From the NCBI RefSeq assembly GCF_024345185.1, contig NZ_BROB01000016.1:1-64000 (forward strand): DNA of 64,000 nt, written 5' to 3'. This document shows positions 17,604-29,373 of this stretch, piece by piece. Each line of letters starts with the position of its first letter. Position 1 is the stretch's first letter. Source of the DNA: Levilactobacillus humaensis. GTDB taxonomy: Bacteria; Bacillota; Bacilli; Lactobacillales; Lactobacillaceae. A model generated the notes under the pieces. It made no database searches. It had not been told where the DNA came from and was given only the letters and a program-made list of their open reading frames with translations. The position numbers and the translations under genes were made by a program.

Positions 17604-17724
17604 AGAGTGGGAAAAAAGGCGGTTAGTCAGCGAGCATTAACGTCGATAGTCGGACAATCCTGGGTTTGGATTGTTTGACTATCGGGGTTAAGCGGAGTTG
17701 ACTGCCTTTTTTTGCGCGTTTTGG
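17604..17724 (+). repeat. structured repeat R1-B, 3' of the GH73 gene
   Basis: A full-length R1 copy. The outer stem pairs AAAAAAGGC with GCCTTTTTT. The middle stem pairs AGTCA with TGACT. The inner stem pairs CGATAGTC-GGACAATCC with GGATTGTTTGACTATCG. The blocks GGCGGTTAG, GAGCATTAACG and GGGGTTAAGCGGAG are intact; the terminal ACACGTTTC has decayed to GCGCGTTTT. Confidence 0.85.
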
Positions 17725-22944: not shown

Positions 22945-23836
22945 TGGTATCTAACCCCCGTTTCAGCAGGTGTTTAAAGTTCAAGACATTCTTGAAGACA
23001 GGTAACATCATGCAGACAGCCAGGATGATGGCGGAGATGAGGTTGAGGTCGTTGGCCTGGAACCCCAGCTTGAGCACAATCAGCAGGACAAAACGGTAGA
23101 GAATACTCCCGAGGGTCACGGCTACCAGTCGTTGGTTCAGCGTCAGATCGCCGAAGGCCACTTCACCGATAATGATGGAGGCCAGGGCAATGACAATGAT
23201 GCCGATTCCCATGTTAACGTCGGCGAACCCGTTGTTCTGAGCGACGAGGGCACCGCCAAAGGCGATCAGGCCGTTGGAAACCATCAGGCCCATAATCTTC
23301 ATGTTGTCGGTGTTGATCCCCAGGGACCGTGCCATGGTTTGGTTATCACCAGTGGCGATGAAACCTTGACCCAATTCCGTTTGCAGGAAGTAAATCACGA
23401 TCGTGGTGATAATCACCATGACAATCGTTCCCAAAACCACACTGTCGAAGTATTGGGGGAGACTGGCGAGAAAATGATTTTTAAACAACGTGTTTTTTCC
23501 GAGTAGGGAGACGTTGGCTCTGCCCATGATTCGTAAGTTCACGGAGTAGCAGGCCGTCATCACGAGAATCCCGGCTAATAGGATGGGAATGTGTCCCTTG
23601 GTGTAGAGCAACCCGGTGATGAGCCCGGCGAGAGCGCCCACGGCAAAGGCCAGCAGCGTGGCTAACAAGGGATTCATACCGTGGCTGATCGCCATGACGG
23701 CGGTAGCCGCACCGAGCGGGAAGGTTCCCTCAACAGTCATGTCGGCGAAATCTAGAATTCTAAAGGTCAGGAACAGCCCGACCCCGAGGACGGCCCAGAG
23801 CAGGCCTTGTCCGATAGAAGAAACGATTAAACTCAT
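22937..23836 (-). CDS. ABC transporter permease (TrpY-like), importer 1
   Basis: 299 aa with about eight to nine membrane segments of the branched-chain/BMP permease type (LFLTFRILDFADMTVEG near the N-terminus). It overlaps the ATPase gene by 8 bp and the binding-protein gene by 4 bp, so translation is coupled. It is clearly paralogous to the permease at 27708-28673. Confidence 0.9.
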   Translation of the reverse strand: MSLIVSSIGQGLLWAVLGVGLFLTFRILDFADMTVEGTFPLGAATAVMAISHGMNPLLATLLAFAVGALAGLITGLLYTKGHIPILLAGILVMTACYSVNLRIMGRANVSLLGKNTLFKNHFLASLPQYFDSVVLGTIVMVIITTIVIYFLQTELGQGFIATGDNQTMARSLGINTDNMKIMGLMVSNGLIAFGGALVAQNNGFADVNMGIGIIVIALASIIIGEVAFGDLTLNQRLVAVTLGSILYRFVLLIVLKLGFQANDLNLISAIILAVCMMLPVFKNVLNFKHLLKRGLDTND

Positions 23837-24828
23837 TTGAAAACCTCCCCGTGTTTTTGGGCTTCTTGAATGACTGAATCAGGTAACGTGATGCCGAGTT
23901 TTTTGGCCTGGGTGAGGTTGATGGTCATTTCACCCTGCCGTTCGAAATGAATGGGGGTGTCGGCCGGGTTCTTACCCTTAAGAATGGCGGCCGTCATCTT
24001 ACCAGTCTCAACACCCAGTTTGTATTGGTTGATGCTGAGGGTCGCGAGACCACCGGCCTTAACCATCGTGTCGACGGCTGGAAAGACGGGGACCTTCTTC
24101 GCGTTGGCCGTGGAGACCAGTGTCTGCATGGCACTGGCGACGGTGTTGTCGGTTGGCACGTAGATCGCGTCGACCTGGCTGACCATCTGTTGGGCTACTT
24201 GGTTGAGGTCGTTGGTGCTGGCGATCGTGTAGGCCTTGAGGCGAACGTGTTCCTGTTTACAGAGCGCCGCAAATTGGTGGTACTGTGCGGTTGCCGAGTC
24301 GTCGGAAGAGGTGTAAATGATTCCCAGCGTTTGCATCTTAGGCATGATTTTTTGGATGAGCTTCAGTTGCGATTTGAGGGGGGCTTGGTCAGAAACACCC
24401 GTGACGTTGTTGCCAGGGTGCTCGTTGCTGTGGACCAGGTCGGCGCCCTTGGGATCCGTGATGGCGCCAAGAACAACGGGAATATTGGAACTAGCGTTGG
24501 CCAGGGCCTGGGCAGATGGGGTGGCGATGCCGATCATGGCGTCCGCCTTCTCGTCCACGAAGCGGGCACTCATGGTTTTCAGATTACTCTGATCGTTCTG
24601 GGCATTCTGGAAGTCAATCTTAACGTTCTTGTTGACGTGATAGCCTTCCTCAGCCAATCCGTGAATAATTCCCTTATGAATGGCATCCAGGGCCGGATGG
24701 GATAACAGTTGAAGAATGCCGACCGTGGGGACGGGTTTCTTAGTGGCGGAGTCCGGTCGACTCTCCTGAACGAAGGCGAAGCCCAGGAAGACCACTAGAA
24801 TTGCGATTAAACCGTATAGACGTTTCAT
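23833..24828 (-). CDS. ABC transporter substrate-binding protein (TrpX-like), importer 1
   Basis: 331 aa. An N-terminal hydrophobic segment (about residues 4-20) lacks any lipobox Cys, so the protein is probably membrane-tethered by an uncleaved anchor or released. The mature part starts TVGILQLLSHPALDAI and follows the PF04392 TrpX-type fold, with IGIATPSAQALAN. GTGAGGT precedes the ATG. It is the first gene of a four-gene operon governed by the leader described at 24881-25140. Predicted substrate is tryptophan or a related aromatic compound (inference). Confidence 0.88.
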   Translation of the reverse strand: MKRLYGLIAILVVFLGFAFVQESRPDSATKKPVPTVGILQLLSHPALDAIHKGIIHGLAEEGYHVNKNVKIDFQNAQNDQSNLKTMSARFVDEKADAMIGIATPSAQALANASSNIPVVLGAITDPKGADLVHSNEHPGNNVTGVSDQAPLKSQLKLIQKIMPKMQTLGIIYTSSDDSATAQYHQFAALCKQEHVRLKAYTIASTNDLNQVAQQMVSQVDAIYVPTDNTVASAMQTLVSTANAKKVPVFPAVDTMVKAGGLATLSINQYKLGVETGKMTAAILKGKNPADTPIHFERQGEMTINLTQAKKLGITLPDSVIQEAQKHGEVFK

Positions 24829-24880
24829 ATTTTTACCTCACTTTAATTCAATGGTTGATGGTGTTAGTCGTATAGAAAAA

Positions 24881-24905
24881 GAGCACCCAGACCGGCTGGG
24901 TGCCC
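24881..24905 (-). terminator. second leader terminator before importer 1
   Basis: GCACCCAG pairs with CTGGGTGC around a short loop, followed on the minus strand by CTCTTTTTCT. It lies only about 50 nt before the binding-protein start, so it must be conditional or leaky. Confidence 0.75.
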
Positions 24906-24914
24906 AAGAAAAAG

Positions 24915-24950
24915 GCCCGCAAAACCGGAGAAGAAGACATCCGTGCGGGC
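24915..24950 (-). terminator. first leader terminator (attenuator) before importer 1
   Basis: GCCCGCA pairs with TGCGGGC, extended by CGGA with TCCG inside, and is followed by CCTTTTTCTT on the minus strand. It lies downstream of the leader peptide gene and alternative hairpins. Confidence 0.8.
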
Positions 24951-24952
24951 TA

Positions 24953-25030
24953 TTGCATCAGAAAGTTAGCCGGCGCAGATGCGAGAATCGCTCTGGGAGC
25001 TCAAGTCGCATCTACTCGATGACGACTTGA
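24953..25030 (-). promoter_or_regulatory. alternative hairpins of the importer 1 leader
   Basis: On the minus-strand RNA, TCAAGTCG (25030-25023), directly after the leader stop, can pair with CGACTTGA (25008-25001). The overlapping AGATGCGA (25013-25006) can instead pair with TCGCATCT (24985-24978), with GCTC-CCA-GAGC inside. GCATC of that last arm can also pair with GATGC (24957-24953). AGCCGG within the last leader codons can pair with CCGGCT (24973-24968). These pairings exclude each other, as expected for an attenuator. Confidence 0.65.
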
Positions 25031-25078
25031 TTACCGGCTTTGCCAACGTCCATTTAACTGAATACCAGACATTTGCAT
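25031..25078 (-). CDS. leader peptide with a single Trp codon
   Basis: 15 codons read MQMSGIQLNGRWQSR then TAA. AAGGAAAG lies 6 nt before the ATG and a promoter lies 35-60 nt upstream. Trp is codon 12. The stop is immediately followed by the alternative hairpins and two tandem terminators. Ribosome position on this ORF would choose between them, either by slow decoding of TGG or by nascent-peptide sensing as in E. coli TnaC, which also has one essential Trp. Too short for usual gene finders. Its role is inference from layout. Confidence 0.65.
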   Translation of the reverse strand: MQMSGIQLNGRWQSR

Positions 25079-25111
25079 AAACTTTCCTTCTTTCCGAATT
25101 TGATTAAGACT

Positions 25112-25140
25112 AGTTTACGGCATCGCTGAAAAACCGTCAA
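25112..25140 (-). promoter_or_regulatory. promoter of importer 1 leader
   Basis: On the minus strand TTGACG (25140-25135), a 17-bp spacer and TAAACT (25117-25112). Confidence 0.7.
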
Positions 25141-26110: not shown

Positions 26111-26139
26111 TTGACAGTCTCATTTTTTAATGGTTAACT
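26111..26139 (+). promoter_or_regulatory. promoter of importer 2 leader
   Basis: Consensus TTGACA (26111-26116) and an extended -10 (TGG-TTAACT, -10 at 26134-26139) with 17-bp spacing, starting 15 nt after the degV stop. Confidence 0.6.
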
Positions 26140-26176
26140 GGTACTTGTAAATTGAAAAATGAAAGGAACTTCACTC

Positions 26177-26239
26177 ATGAAGCCAAACAACCTCACTCAT
26201 TTAAATAACCAATTTGCCTTTAGCTTTTTCTTTAGATAG
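26177..26239 (+). CDS. phenylalanine-rich leader peptide
   Basis: 20 codons read MKPNNLTHLNNQFAFSFFFR then TAG. Five of the last eight codons are Phe. AAAGGAA lies 8 nt before the ATG. It resembles the E. coli pheA leader peptide in principle: a run of codons for one amino acid just before mutually exclusive hairpins. The last bases of the ORF (CTTTAGC, 26218-26224) can pair with GCTAAAG (26301-26307), and the bases from the stop onward form the first arm of an alternative stem. Too short for usual gene finders. Confidence 0.8.
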   Translation: MKPNNLTHLNNQFAFSFFFR

Positions 26240-26357
26240 CGTTTGTATTCACACGTTGGATACGAACGCGCCGCTCAATTGCGTTCGTATCTATCGATTA
26301 GCTAAAGTTTTTCAACATGACTTAAGCGCCAGATAGGTACGGGTATAATCTATCTGG
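26239..26357 (+). promoter_or_regulatory. attenuator hairpins of importer 2
   Basis: Arm 1 GCGTTTGTAT (26239-26248) can pair with arm 2 ATACGAACGC (26260-26269). Arm 2 extended (26259-26269) can instead pair perfectly with GCGTTCGTATC (26281-26291, 11 bp). Further on, CCAGATAG (26329-26336) pairs with CTATCTGG (26350-26357), but AATCTATCTGG (26347-26357) can also pair with the left terminator arm (26384-26394), which would block termination. These choices suit ribosome-controlled attenuation. Confidence 0.7.
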
Positions 26358-26380
26358 AGAAAATATATCGGGGCCCGATA

Positions 26381-26426
26381 ACACCAGGTAGATTCTACTC
26401 AGAATCTATCTGGTGTTTTTTTGTTT
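26381..26426 (+). terminator. attenuator terminator of importer 2
   Basis: A 16-bp stem with one G-U pair, 26381-26396 with 26401-26416, is followed by TTTTTTTGTTTT. It stands about 290 nt before the binding-protein start. Confidence 0.9.
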
Positions 26427-26429
26427 TCA

Positions 26430-26546
26430 GAGTGTGAACCAAGGCGGTTAGGGGACGAGCATTAACGTCGCTAAGCCGATAATCCTGGTTTTGGATTATT
26501 GGTTTAGCGGGGTTAAGCGGAATCCCCTTGGCGAACACGTTTCAGA
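26430..26546 (+). repeat. structured repeat R1-C, after the attenuator terminator
   Basis: A full-length R1 copy. The outer stem pairs CCAAGG with CCTTGG. The middle stem pairs AGGGGA with TCCCCT, where copies A and B have AGTCA with TGACT. The inner stem pairs GCTAAGCCGATAATCC with GGATTATTGGTTTAGC, where copies A and B have the GATAG/CTATC version. Changes occur on both sides and keep pairing. It is the only copy ahead of a gene, but it still follows a transcription end point. Confidence 0.85.
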
Positions 26547-26714: not shown

Positions 26715-27686
26715 ATGAAAAAAGGATTATTAACGGGTATCGCCTTATTAGGATTGGGATTAACATTAGCGGGCTGTTCGAGCAAGTCCGATGCTAGCAG
26801 CAAGGACACACTGAATGTTGGAATTTTACAGGTCGTCCAACATGGGTCCCTCGATGAAGCCAGACAAGGTTTCAAGGCTGGCCTGAAGCAGGAATTAAAG
26901 GATCATCACAAGTCTACTAAGGTGACCTATCACTACCTTAACGCGCAGGGGGATCAGGCCAATCTAAACACGATGAGTCAACAGTTGAGCCAACAAAAGA
27001 ATGACCTTCTCTTAGGGATTGCCACACCGGCCGCTCAGGCCTTAGCCAAGAAGACGAAGACCACGCCAACCCTGGTAACGGCGGTGACCGACTTGAAGGC
27101 CGCCGGGTTGGTAAAGACCAACGACAAGCCACAGACCAACGTCAGTGGGACCAGCGATTTAACCCCGGTTGGCCTGCAATTGAAGCTCCTAGCCAGCCTG
27201 AGTAAGGGCAACAAGCCATTGGGAATTATGTACAACTCATCCGAAGAAAACTCGGTCTTACAGGTGAAATTAGCCAAGGCTTATGCGAAGAAGCATGATT
27301 TGAAGCTCAAGGTTGTCAGTGCGACCAGCACCAACGATGTGGCCAGCGTACTTGCTGGTTTGCAAGGCAAGATTTCTGGCTTGTACCTGCCAACCGATAA
27401 CCTGATGGCCAGTGCCATGAAGACAATTGGTCAGAAGGCCAAGGCCGCCAAGTTGCCTGTTGTGACTGGGTCGATTGAAATGGCTGAAGATGGTGGGACC
27501 GCGACCTACGGCATCAATTACTACGACCTCGGCAAGCAAACCGGGAAGATGGCATACAACGTGTTAGAGAACGGTAAGAAGCCACAGAACATGGCGGTTG
27601 AAACCTCCAAGCACCTACATCTCTACATCAACAAGGCCAACACCAAGGCCATTGGCATGCAACCCAAGCAGATTAAGCAACCCTAA
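26715..27686 (+). CDS. ABC transporter substrate-binding lipoprotein (TrpX-like), importer 2
   Basis: 323 aa. The lipobox LAGC (Cys near residue 20) makes it a lipoprotein, unlike its paralogue in importer 1. The mature part begins TLNVGILQVVQHGSLDEA and follows the same PF04392-type fold, with GIATPAAQALA. GGAGGAA precedes ATG 26715. The Phe-rich leader upstream predicts phenylalanine, or aromatic amino acids generally, as the substrate (inference). Confidence 0.9.
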   Translation: MKKGLLTGIALLGLGLTLAGCSSKSDASSKDTLNVGILQVVQHGSLDEARQGFKAGLKQELKDHHKSTKVTYHYLNAQGDQANLNTMSQQLSQQKNDLLLGIATPAAQALAKKTKTTPTLVTAVTDLKAAGLVKTNDKPQTNVSGTSDLTPVGLQLKLLASLSKGNKPLGIMYNSSEENSVLQVKLAKAYAKKHDLKLKVVSATSTNDVASVLAGLQGKISGLYLPTDNLMASAMKTIGQKAKAAKLPVVTGSIEMAEDGGTATYGINYYDLGKQTGKMAYNVLENGKKPQNMAVETSKHLHLYINKANTKAIGMQPKQIKQP

Positions 27687-27707: not shown

Positions 27708-28673
27708 ATGTTAATCACGAGTATCGGTCAAGGTCTTCTGTGGGCACCCCTGGTAATTGGGGTCTTCCTGACGTTTCGTATTTTAGATATTCCCGATCTG
27801 ACCACCGAGGGAAGTTTCCCACTGGGAGCCGCGGTGACCGTCAGTGCGATGATTCACGGCCAGTCGGCCATTGTGGCTAGTCTATTAGGCTTCTTAGCTG
27901 GCTGTCTGGCAGGATGGGTGACAGGGATGCTGGACACCAAGTTAAAAATGCCGTCGTTACTGGCGGGGATCCTCACAATGACGGGACTGTATTCCGTGAA
28001 CATGCATGTGATGGGTAAGTCTAACGTGCCGCTCCTGGATCAGAAGGTCCTGACGAGTTATCTACCAGCGACTTGGTCGGTGGACCTGCAGACCATCGTC
28101 GTGGGCCTGGGCGTCACCGCCCTGGTCATGGCGGGCCTCATCTGGTTGTTCCGAACGCGGCTTGGCCTTTCTCTCATGGCGACCGGGAACAATGCCGCTA
28201 TGAGTGCCGCTAACGGGATTTACACCGACCGGATGGTGATTCTGGGCTACATGGTTTCTAACGGCTGTATCGCCCTCTCTGGGGCCTTGATTGCCCAGAG
28301 TAATGGATTCGCCGATATTGGCATGGGGATTGGGACCATCGTGATTGGCCTAGCCTACGTGCTGGTCGGGGAGATCTTCTTGCGTGGCCGCCAGATTTGG
28401 TTACGTCTGACCGCGATGGTGTTGGGAGCCGTGATTTATCGTTACCTTCTGACCGTTGCCATGGGTCTGGGTTTCCCAGTCGACGACCTCAAGATTCTCT
28501 CAGCGGGCATTCTAGTTATCGTGATTTGCCTGCCATTGTTACGAAATAAGTTACAGACGAAGCAACAGTTGAAACGTTATCTCAAACAGATTGGAGTCGA
28601 TGAGCATGCCACAACCAGCAGTCTTAAGCGTCAAGCACCTACAGAAGGTCTTCTTTCCCGGAACGGTAAATGA
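27708..28673 (+). CDS. ABC transporter permease (TrpY-like), importer 2
   Basis: 321 aa, about eight to nine membrane segments, starting with GQGLLWAPLVIGVFLTFRIL, nearly the same as the importer 1 permease. The C-terminal 25-30 residues (after KRYLKQIG) are hydrophilic and coded in the region that overlaps the ATPase gene by 68 nt. AGAAAGGATG precedes the start. Confidence 0.9.
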   Translation: MLITSIGQGLLWAPLVIGVFLTFRILDIPDLTTEGSFPLGAAVTVSAMIHGQSAIVASLLGFLAGCLAGWVTGMLDTKLKMPSLLAGILTMTGLYSVNMHVMGKSNVPLLDQKVLTSYLPATWSVDLQTIVVGLGVTALVMAGLIWLFRTRLGLSLMATGNNAAMSAANGIYTDRMVILGYMVSNGCIALSGALIAQSNGFADIGMGIGTIVIGLAYVLVGEIFLRGRQIWLRLTAMVLGAVIYRYLLTVAMGLGFPVDDLKILSAGILVIVICLPLLRNKLQTKQQLKRYLKQIGVDEHATTSSLKRQAPTEGLLSRNGK

Positions 28674-29373
28674 GCGTCACGTCTTAAAGGATGTCAGTCT
28701 CACCATTGAACCAGGGGACTTCGTGGCCGTCATCGGGAATAATGGTGCCGGCAAATCTACGCTACTCAATACGATTGCCGGCACGTTGCCGGTCGACGCT
28801 GGCGAGTTACGGCTCGCCGACCATGATGTGACGCATAAGCCTGTGGCTTACCGGTCGCGTTGGTTGTCGCGGGTCTTCCAGGATCCCAAGATGGGCACGG
28901 CTGGTGAACTGAGTGTCGCCGAGAATCTCACGCTGGCGGAACAACACACCGGTAGCATGAGTCTTCGTGGATTCCGGCATAAGGGTCAGACAGCGGCCTA
29001 TCAAGAACTTCTACAGCCCTTGAACATGGGGTTAGAAGACCGCTTGACCACTCAGGTGAAATACCTATCGGGTGGGCAGCGCCAAGCATTATCCCTATTG
29101 ATGGCGACGCTGAGCCATCCTGAATTGTTATTGTTAGACGAACATACGGCAGCGCTGGATCCCCAGACTAGTCACCAGGTGATGGCCCTGACCCAAAAGA
29201 TTGTGACCGAGAATCACTTAACCACCCTGATGATTACCCATAAGATGAGTGATGCCTTAACTTATGGTAATCGCTTGGTCATGGTGCAAGATGGCCAAAT
29301 TAAACTGGATGTTCGGGGCGAAGAGAAGCAACGAATTCGTCAAGAGGATCTCTTGGGCTTGTTTGCCGATTAG
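28606..29373 (+). CDS. ABC transporter ATP-binding protein (TrpZ-like), importer 2
   Basis: 255 aa. Walker A GNNGAGKST, signature LSGGQRQ, Walker B LLLLDEHTAALD and the switch His in MITHKMSD are present. ATG 28606 has GGAG 9 nt upstream, inside the permease gene; ATG 28600 is an alternative. The 68-nt overlap with the permease, in a different frame, is long for an ABC operon. Confidence 0.9.
   Translation: MPQPAVLSVKHLQKVFFPGTVNERHVLKDVSLTIEPGDFVAVIGNNGAGKSTLLNTIAGTLPVDAGELRLADHDVTHKPVAYRSRWLSRVFQDPKMGTAGELSVAENLTLAEQHTGSMSLRGFRHKGQTAAYQELLQPLNMGLEDRLTTQVKYLSGGQRQALSLLMATLSHPELLLLDEHTAALDPQTSHQVMALTQKIVTENHLTTLMITHKMSDALTYGNRLVMVQDGQIKLDVRGEEKQRIRQEDLLGLFAD

Follow-up and report, generated by a model that had tools for sequence, protein, structure and literature searches.

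Upstream of an ABC importer operon in Levilactobacillus humaensis, a short open reading frame (ORF) ending in a cluster of phenylalanine codons is followed by a series of stems and a terminator. This raises the question of how the operon is controlled and which substrate its importer carries. The locus was analyzed within a stretch of 64,000 nucleotides (contig NZ_BROB01000016.1, positions 1 to 64,000), referred to as the window. Judged from sequence comparison and predicted folds, the leader probably acts as a ribosome-mediated transcription attenuator, which would respond to charged tRNA-Phe and thereby control an importer that probably takes up phenylalanine; we assign this reading a probability of about 0.8.

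Leader anatomy and competing helices

The leader and the operon comprise the following elements, all on the plus strand. Pairing percentages refer to the cells of an alignment of 40 leaders described below.

26111-26139, plus strand: promoter-like elements read in the sequence, -35 TTGACA (26111-26116) and -10 TTAACT (26134-26139) with a 17-base spacer; TTGACA is kept in all 31 aligned leaders of the genus, the -10 element is variable, with TTTACT in several
26162-26167, plus strand: ribosome binding site AAAGGA, nine bases 5' of the ATG; AAAGG is kept in the genus alignment
26177-26239, plus strand: leader ORF MKPNNLTHLNNQFAFSFFFR, 20 codons, ATG at 26177, stop codon TAG at 26237-26239
26218-26224, plus strand: codon arm r1, CUUUAGC, partner r1' (26301-26307); 98.6% of cells paired, nearly invariant
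26239-26251, plus strand: arm a, starting on the final base of the stop codon; a-b 98.7% paired
26257-26269, plus strand: arm b, partner a or c, pairing counted in both folds
26281-26295, plus strand: arm c, partner b (26281-26291) or d (26287-26295); b-c 100%, c-d 99.4% paired
26301-26307, plus strand: arm r1', GCUAAAG, identified by pairing with r1 and by order-wide arm swaps
26329-26340, plus strand: arm d, partner c or e, pairing counted in both folds
26347-26357, plus strand: arm e, partner d or f, 5' arm of the antiterminator; d-e 99.5%, e-f 96.1% paired
26366-26380, plus strand: small hairpin h, UAUCG/CGAUA, between e and f, seen by eye in the alignment
26381-26396, plus strand: arm f, 5' arm of the terminator, from the pair list and fold counts
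26401-26422, plus strand: terminator arm g and T run, from the sequence and fold counts
26715-27686, plus strand: substrate-binding lipoprotein, PF04392, TrpX-like, by profile match; chosen start, with ATG 26658 also in frame
27708-28673, plus strand: ABC permease, PF02653, by profile match
28600-29373, plus strand: ABC ATPase, PF00005, by profile match; start at 28591 or 28600

The putative leader ORF thus combines a ribosome binding site with several codons for one amino acid near its end, as is typical of attenuators: phenylalanine is encoded at codons 13, 15, 17, 18 and 19, i.e. at five of the last eight. Among 323 ORFs of 10-40 codons preceded by a Shine-Dalgarno sequence on both strands of the window, it was the sole one with at least five phenylalanine codons in the last eight, and no ORF so phenylalanine-rich at its end occurred in 30 shuffled windows with a mean of 431 comparable ORFs each. 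The RNA 26147-26425 folds with a z of -8.81 against 200 dinucleotide shuffles. Fold and ORF end together show that the leader is not a product of chance. A second in-frame ATG at 26159 (26 codons) has no evident ribosome binding site and is present in only some of the 31 leaders.

Downstream of the ORF, arm a pairs with b (26239-26248/26260-26269, extending to 26251/26257; 13 pairs), b can instead pair with c (26259-26269/26281-26291; 11 pairs), and the antiterminator e-f (26347-26357/26384-26394; 11 pairs) competes with the terminator f-g (26381-26396/26401-26416; 16 pairs), which runs into seven T at 26416-26422. The initial annotation had already described the 20-codon ORF with its good ribosome site and five phenylalanine codons, the arm-sharing stems, the antiterminator option and the 16-bp terminator with T run, and all of these were recovered at the same positions. 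Its account of the alternation was incomplete, as it had missed the joining helices c-d (26287-26295/26332-26340) and d-e (26329-26338/26348-26357) as well as r1-r1'. Because c has d as a second partner and d has e, all seven arms (a-g) fall into two complete sets, namely a-b/c-d/e-f for read-through and b-c/d-e/f-g for termination. A second codon arm, r2 (26227-26239), has a possible partner in e (26350-26362).

Comparative pair counts were based on the 40 rows of alignment A2: a similarity threshold of 96.5% reduced 62 leaders to 40, to which the window was added, and leader L166, whose arms d to g do not align, was removed; L097 was excluded because of insufficient flank. The read-through set and the termination set each had 98.0% of their cells paired, which was reached by 0 of 500 shuffles, and slid versions of the two sets remained at or below 43% and 38%, respectively. 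Two-sided changes were present in 71 cells of the termination set. Across both sets, pairs with two-sided changes were located mostly in the terminator (six pairs), followed by e-f (two pairs) and by a-b, b-c, c-d and d-e with one pair each. At least as many such pairs as in the termination set occurred in nine of 500 shuffles; the four pairs in the read-through set were matched by 91 of 500 and are thus not unusual. The support of c-d and d-e by one co-varying position each is a weak point of the relay. The clearest co-change concerns one position shared by c, d and e: most rows have U in c, A in d and U in e there, and seven rows, belonging to Pediococcus, Lentilactobacillus and further relatives, have A, U and either A or G, respectively. 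At one position, e-f is without a standard pair in 11 of the 40 rows. Overall, the predicted terminator and antiterminator folds are mutually exclusive and conserved with compensatory changes, as would be expected for an attenuator.

In L166, the sequences of d, e, f and g are unrelated to those of the other leaders; d-e and f-g are part of its predicted fold, and c-d and e-f are readable by eye. Palindromes resembling hairpin h were seen by eye in many alignment rows.

Conservation and predicted direction of the switch

Leader DNA was found in 32 of the 35 genomes of the genus (own genome counted) with 81-100% identity, and the same 32 genomes encode a close orthologue of the binding protein of the operon (79-100% identity). 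The remaining three (G001, G033, G034) have neither the leader nor the orthologue and hold only a 39% identical paralogue, so that leader and importer orthologue fully coincide in their occurrence. The genus alignment comprised 31 leaders because a position filter left out that of G008 (L132), which has an intact ORF; indels in this alignment are located outside the ORF.

A pattern scan of named genomes yielded 61 matches, 59 of which are leaders; two from metagenome bins (L073, L085) were dropped because they have no leader ORF. The leaders come from Levilactobacillus, Companilactobacillus, Lactiplantibacillus (including plantarum), Pediococcus, Lentilactobacillus and three Lactobacillus sp. 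records; L118 has its ORF start at the locus edge. The peptide end QFAFSFFFR, with Q, K or E as first residue, was present in 59 of 59 leaders from five genera, with the scan pattern itself fixing the phenylalanine and alanine residues and TAG and leaving the AGC and AGA/AGG codons open. In contrast to this constant end, the N-terminal part of the peptide is variable, and outside the genus the ORF has 20-23 codons. Where the pattern permitted synonymous codons, few were used (GCC in 59/59, AGC in 59/59, and TTC at codon 18 in 59/59 leaders). This near-absence argues for a constraint acting largely on the RNA. At the sensitivity used, the leader was found in no plasmid record. The conservation anticipated in the initial annotation, i.e. 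of ORF, phenylalanine codons and stem alternation, thus extends over five genera with some compensatory changes, and the comparison of relatives lends weight to its reading of the locus as ribosome-mediated attenuation.

The leader ORF is presumably translated, and the switch would operate as follows. When phenylalanine is short, the ribosome would wait at a phenylalanine codon and cover the codon arm, leaving arm a free or mostly free; a-b, c-d and then the antiterminator e-f could form, and the operon would be read. When phenylalanine is plentiful, the ribosome would proceed to the stop codon, which overlaps arm a; with arm a covered, b-c, d-e and the terminator f-g would form and transcription would stop. 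If the ORF were not translated, the codon arms r1 and r2 would be free for r1', c or e, by which the partner of the antiterminator is predicted to be removed in this sequence, with relatives being less certain.

For analysis of the direction of the switch, the window was folded with a ribosome-sized mask of three footprint sizes. Predicted e-f pairing was 0.95-1.00 with the ribosome at phenylalanine codons 15, 17 and 18, 0.06-0.08 with the ribosome at the stop codon, and 0.02 without a ribosome; at codons 13 and 19 it varied with the footprint (0.17-0.93 and 0.66-1.00, respectively). In this sequence, masked folding therefore gives the direction described above.

Across the 40 relatives, the contrast between ribosome positions is weaker than in the window. 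With f present, e-f exceeded 0.5 in 36 rows with the ribosome at F13, in 39 at F15, in 39 at F17 and in 16 at the stop codon; without a ribosome, on transcripts beginning near the ORF end, it did so in 22 of 40. As 16 rows favor e-f even at the stop codon, the off state would depend on prior formation of d-e. On transcripts ending before f, d-e exceeded 0.5 in all 40 rows at the stop codon, as well as in 12, 20, 26, 38 and 40 of 40 rows at F13, F15, F17, F18 and F19, respectively; since d-e forms at phenylalanine codons too, e-f would have to displace it. The model hence requires that d-e persists while the ribosome sits on the stop codon, and that f displaces it once arm a is free. An automated version applied to 147 leaders with predicted terminators was nearly flat, with a drop of more than 0.3 in eight leaders compared to five of 441 shuffled controls and a mean drop of 0.072 compared to -0.003. 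Altogether, these predictions make the direction of the switch likely, but not proven.

Related leaders, rival explanations and known systems

For the detection of more distant relatives, a covariance model (R1) spanning the ORF end to r1' was applied with a threshold of E ≤ 0.01 per genome, at which about one genome in a hundred is expected to match by chance. R1 matched 226 of 395 sampled genomes of the order Lactobacillales (59 of 80 genera) and 115 of 397 sampled at family level (21 of 40 genera). A class-wide sample of 250 added five genomes from other orders at E ≤ 0.001. The initial annotation had set this layout against T-boxes as the more usual solution in Bacillota; given how widespread related leaders are across the order, the setting is no oddity.

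Of the matches listed, 111 loci from 85 genomes were read, comprising 100 picked by hand for genus spread and 11 of 18 further loci, the other seven being near copies. A leader ORF was in the expected place in all 111 read loci among the matches listed, with a four-base ribosome-site-like motif before each start, the start chosen among in-frame options, and the second-scoring frame taken for L289. At least four aromatic or at least four aliphatic residues occur among the nine end residues in 109 of these 111 loci among the matches listed, the exceptions being L270 and L275. Endings before the stop codon include FYFSYFR, YYFSYFR, FFFSFFR, IIISIIIR, LLLLSLIIR and LLISVIR. In the 98 aromatic peptides among the matches listed, aromatic residues account for 56% of the nine final positions compared to 1.6% elsewhere. 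Because R1 was built on phenylalanine leaders, the aromatic share is inflated.

A downstream gene was available for 110 loci, since L220 runs off its contig. The encoded proteins were clustered, and clusters were assigned to gene classes by reading before profile scans; 20 of the 110 proteins, including all 14 cluster representatives, were scanned and the other 90 named by cluster. Among the matches listed, the genes 3' of aromatic leaders encode 59 TrpX-like binding proteins, 16 shikimate dehydrogenases, eight MFS transporters (one representative being fused to chorismate mutase), five aminotransferases and four chorismate synthases, plus single cases of dehydroquinate synthase, DAHP synthase, transketolase, hydroxyacid dehydrogenase and another binding protein. 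Those 3' of aliphatic leaders, again among the matches listed, encode seven LivJ-like Peripla_BP_6 proteins, three threonine ammonia-lyases, two acetolactate synthases and one branched-chain aminotransferase. Thus, among the matches listed, all 13 aliphatic leaders precede branched-chain-type genes and all 97 aromatic leaders precede others (Fisher p 3.8e-17, kinship uncorrected), and the downstream gene fits the leader codons.

Helices were further analyzed by arm swaps between loci, from which L331 was left out throughout and nine more loci with unusable spacing were left out for e-f, c-d and c-f. For e-f, the mean z was -1.59, and in 41 of 101 loci the native combination outperformed at least 95% of swaps, compared to a z of 0.14 and six of 101 loci for the control pair c-f. 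The helix c-d has a mean of -17.6 kcal/mol, but swapped arms almost equal native ones (z -0.43; 10 of 101 loci). The codon arm and r1' paired at -12.1 kcal/mol in native and -8.6 kcal/mol in swapped combinations (110 loci), and 39 loci beat at least 95% of swaps. Aliphatic ORF ends fitted their own r1' better than aromatic ones did in 10 of 13 loci, and aromatic ends better than aliphatic ones in 79 of 97; within the aliphatic class, two of 13 stand out for their own r1'. It seems rather probable that one ancestral scaffold was re-coded many times across Lactobacillales and slightly beyond, keeping the same relay, carrying Phe, Phe/Tyr or Ile/Leu/Val codons, and changing codon arm and r1' together. 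If so, it would constitute a multi-specific regulon of T-box-like scope that is read by the ribosome.

Several loci showed further features. Five leaders of one family of the order (L283, L292, L303, L314, L319), which have TrpX-like genes downstream, carry their stop codon within arm a, shifted by nine bases in the 3' direction, with endings such as FSYFRSCL. Two genomes each carry two TrpX-like operons with different leaders, RYYFSYFR and TYYSYYR (L277, L278) or RFYFSYFR and RYYYSYFR (L324, L325); such pairs of different Phe/Tyr make-up possibly belong to Phe- and Tyr-tuned importers. Of four loci outside the order (L345, L346, L347, L352), three have the ending RFYFSYF and a next gene that by reading resembles DAHP synthase, and the remaining one has FYYYFGFFR and is followed by an aminotransferase-like gene. 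In another genus of the family, L163, L164 and L165 have a phenylalanine-rich ORF, MNSMQRVAFSFFFK.PSNRLVD, and a terminator-like hairpin upstream of a gene that by reading encodes an amino-acid permease. One of these three genomes (G058) has no R1 match, which indicates either a separate attenuator or a distant one.

Alternative explanations were weighed against these data. With the same arms, a three-step attenuator can be drawn in which plentiful phenylalanine lets r2 pair with e, a stalled ribosome frees e for f, and the a-b-c stems are passive. The helix r2-e is part of the minimum-energy fold of the whole leader and dominant in the window without ribosome (0.98). However, in the 40 rows its cells are 92.6% paired, with one inner pair lost in seven rows and another in 13, it has a single cell with a two-sided change overall, and it leaves the conserved a-b, b-c, c-d and d-e unexplained. 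It was rejected as the main switch on the pairing losses, and we regard this arrangement as unlikely. We consider it highly improbable that the peptide FAFSFFFR itself stalls the ribosome together with a free ligand or drug. The near-identical peptide end in 59 leaders would suit such an arrest, although it is partly imposed by the scan pattern; the near-absence of synonymous codons points to the RNA instead, order-wide the residues vary among Phe/Tyr or become Ile, Leu or Val before branched-chain-type genes, and r1' varies together with the ORF-end residues.

A trans-acting small RNA, the type given in Rfam for the related family RF02863 (sRNA_2410), has a similarly small chance of being the right explanation. 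According to the available part of the source, RF02863 was catalogued by RNA-seq in Enterococcus faecium, where it is expressed as a 195-nt RNA and gives two transcripts in Northern blots (PMC5593968); in Rfam it is typed as an sRNA gene, and the available part of the source gives no function, ORF or amino-acid role. Its cut-off of 61 bits was exceeded by five of ten loci tested, namely L203 (177.3 bits), L206, L166 (83.7 bits), L215 and L213, the hits in L206 and L213 being on the minus strand because these loci are stored in that orientation. The window scored 24 bits (E 0.053), below the cut-off. The relatives above it sit just 5' of a gene, with ORF, terminator and gene-matched codons, the model in L203 spans the ORF end to the terminator edge, and an attenuated transcript, which may have a second role in trans, could pass for a small RNA. 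We infer that sRNA_2410 is RNA from such a leader. Least credible is a metabolite riboswitch or an unrecognized T-box. T-boxes are common in the host genome (21 matches at E ≤ 0.001, four above cut-off), but a binding pocket would not account for the match between codons and genes. A T-box (RF00230) or catalogued riboswitch at the leader was rejected, since no Rfam family reached its cut-off in the window, enterobacterial leader families (presumably including Phe_leader) among those searched, and none of the 21 T-box matches is on the leader's contig. A weak match to RF04312 ('trpB ncRNA motif') at 26330-26425 covers the hairpins d-e and f-g (25.3 bits, cut-off 59, E 0.16) and reflects chance or distant resemblance.

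Ribosome-mediated attenuation by tRNA-Phe charging would link the leader to known systems. The pheL-pheA and trpL attenuators of E. coli have a short ORF rich in the regulated amino acid, with the stop codon at the switching arm. The leader described here resembles them in these features and in the competition of terminator and antiterminator; it differs by six competing steps instead of three, by its location before an import operon, and by control codons that also pair with r1'. Among Bacillota, leader-peptide attenuators are described, in the accessible text of the respective sources, for branched-chain amino-acid operons of Staphylococcus aureus and Listeria monocytogenes (PMC6123439) and for histidine genes (PMC2965389, PMC9413887), as are cases in neighboring groups, aroF of Acholeplasma and uORFC-13-1 (PMC8632094). 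Like the leader here, these have a terminator preceded by an ORF with amino-acid codons, and the accessible text of the four sources describes neither this scaffold nor a phenylalanine leader on an importer in Lactobacillales. In Streptococcus suis, trpXYZ is controlled by a tryptophan T-box according to the accessible part of PMC9382623; there, tRNA charging controls a TrpX-type importer, as proposed here, but unlike the leader here the T-box binds tRNA directly and has no ORF. Leader-peptide attenuation is thus a known kind of control in Bacillota, given the branched-chain operons and histidine genes; no description of the scaffold, of its spread or of its re-coding was found in the literature searched, which, subscription papers aside, contained no recognized paper on this leader. 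If the reading is correct, an order treated as T-box territory also runs widespread leader-peptide attenuators, which govern uptake and synthesis of aromatic and branched-chain amino acids. Leader codons would give testable substrate predictions for many TrpX-like importers, the small RNA catalogued as sRNA_2410 would gain a likely function, and the helix relay with its co-varying codon arm would offer a natural series for the study of specificity change.

Importer substrate and neighboring loci

Designation of the importer as TrpX-type was correct insofar as the binding protein (26715-27686) is TrpX-like; TrpX proper was rejected, since it scores 306.8 bits against the TrpX model NF041285, below the cut-off of 390. 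The neighboring paralogue (23836-24828) exceeds this cut-off with 489.5 bits. The nearest PDB entries are 6hni for the former and 3lft for the latter, which we take to be a tyrosine binder and the pneumococcal tryptophan-binding homologue, respectively. Binding of tryptophan by a pneumococcal homologue is reported in the accessible part of PMC9382623. In the host genome (estimated to be 99% complete), no prephenate dehydratase match was found, whereas 14 of 14 control genomes were positive; phenylalanine is therefore probably needed from outside. Based on the TrpX score below cut-off, the PDB neighbors and the lack of a prephenate dehydratase match, phenylalanine is favored as the importer's substrate.

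The divergent TrpX operon has a leader ORF of its own, MQMSGIQLNGRWQSR, with one tryptophan codon (window 24829-25140, minus strand), followed by possible alternative stems and a terminator. A DNA match to this leader is present in 35 of 35 genus genomes, and its last seven codons plus stop are base-identical in 30 of 30 loci read. Under the re-coding reading, this leader would represent another branch. A copy of a genome-wide repeat is located at about 26429-26540, between the terminator and the binding-protein gene. For 26429-26500, 39 further matches are listed in the genome (76-100% identity), one of them at 17604-17675, and the copy in the window folds as a long imperfect DNA hairpin.
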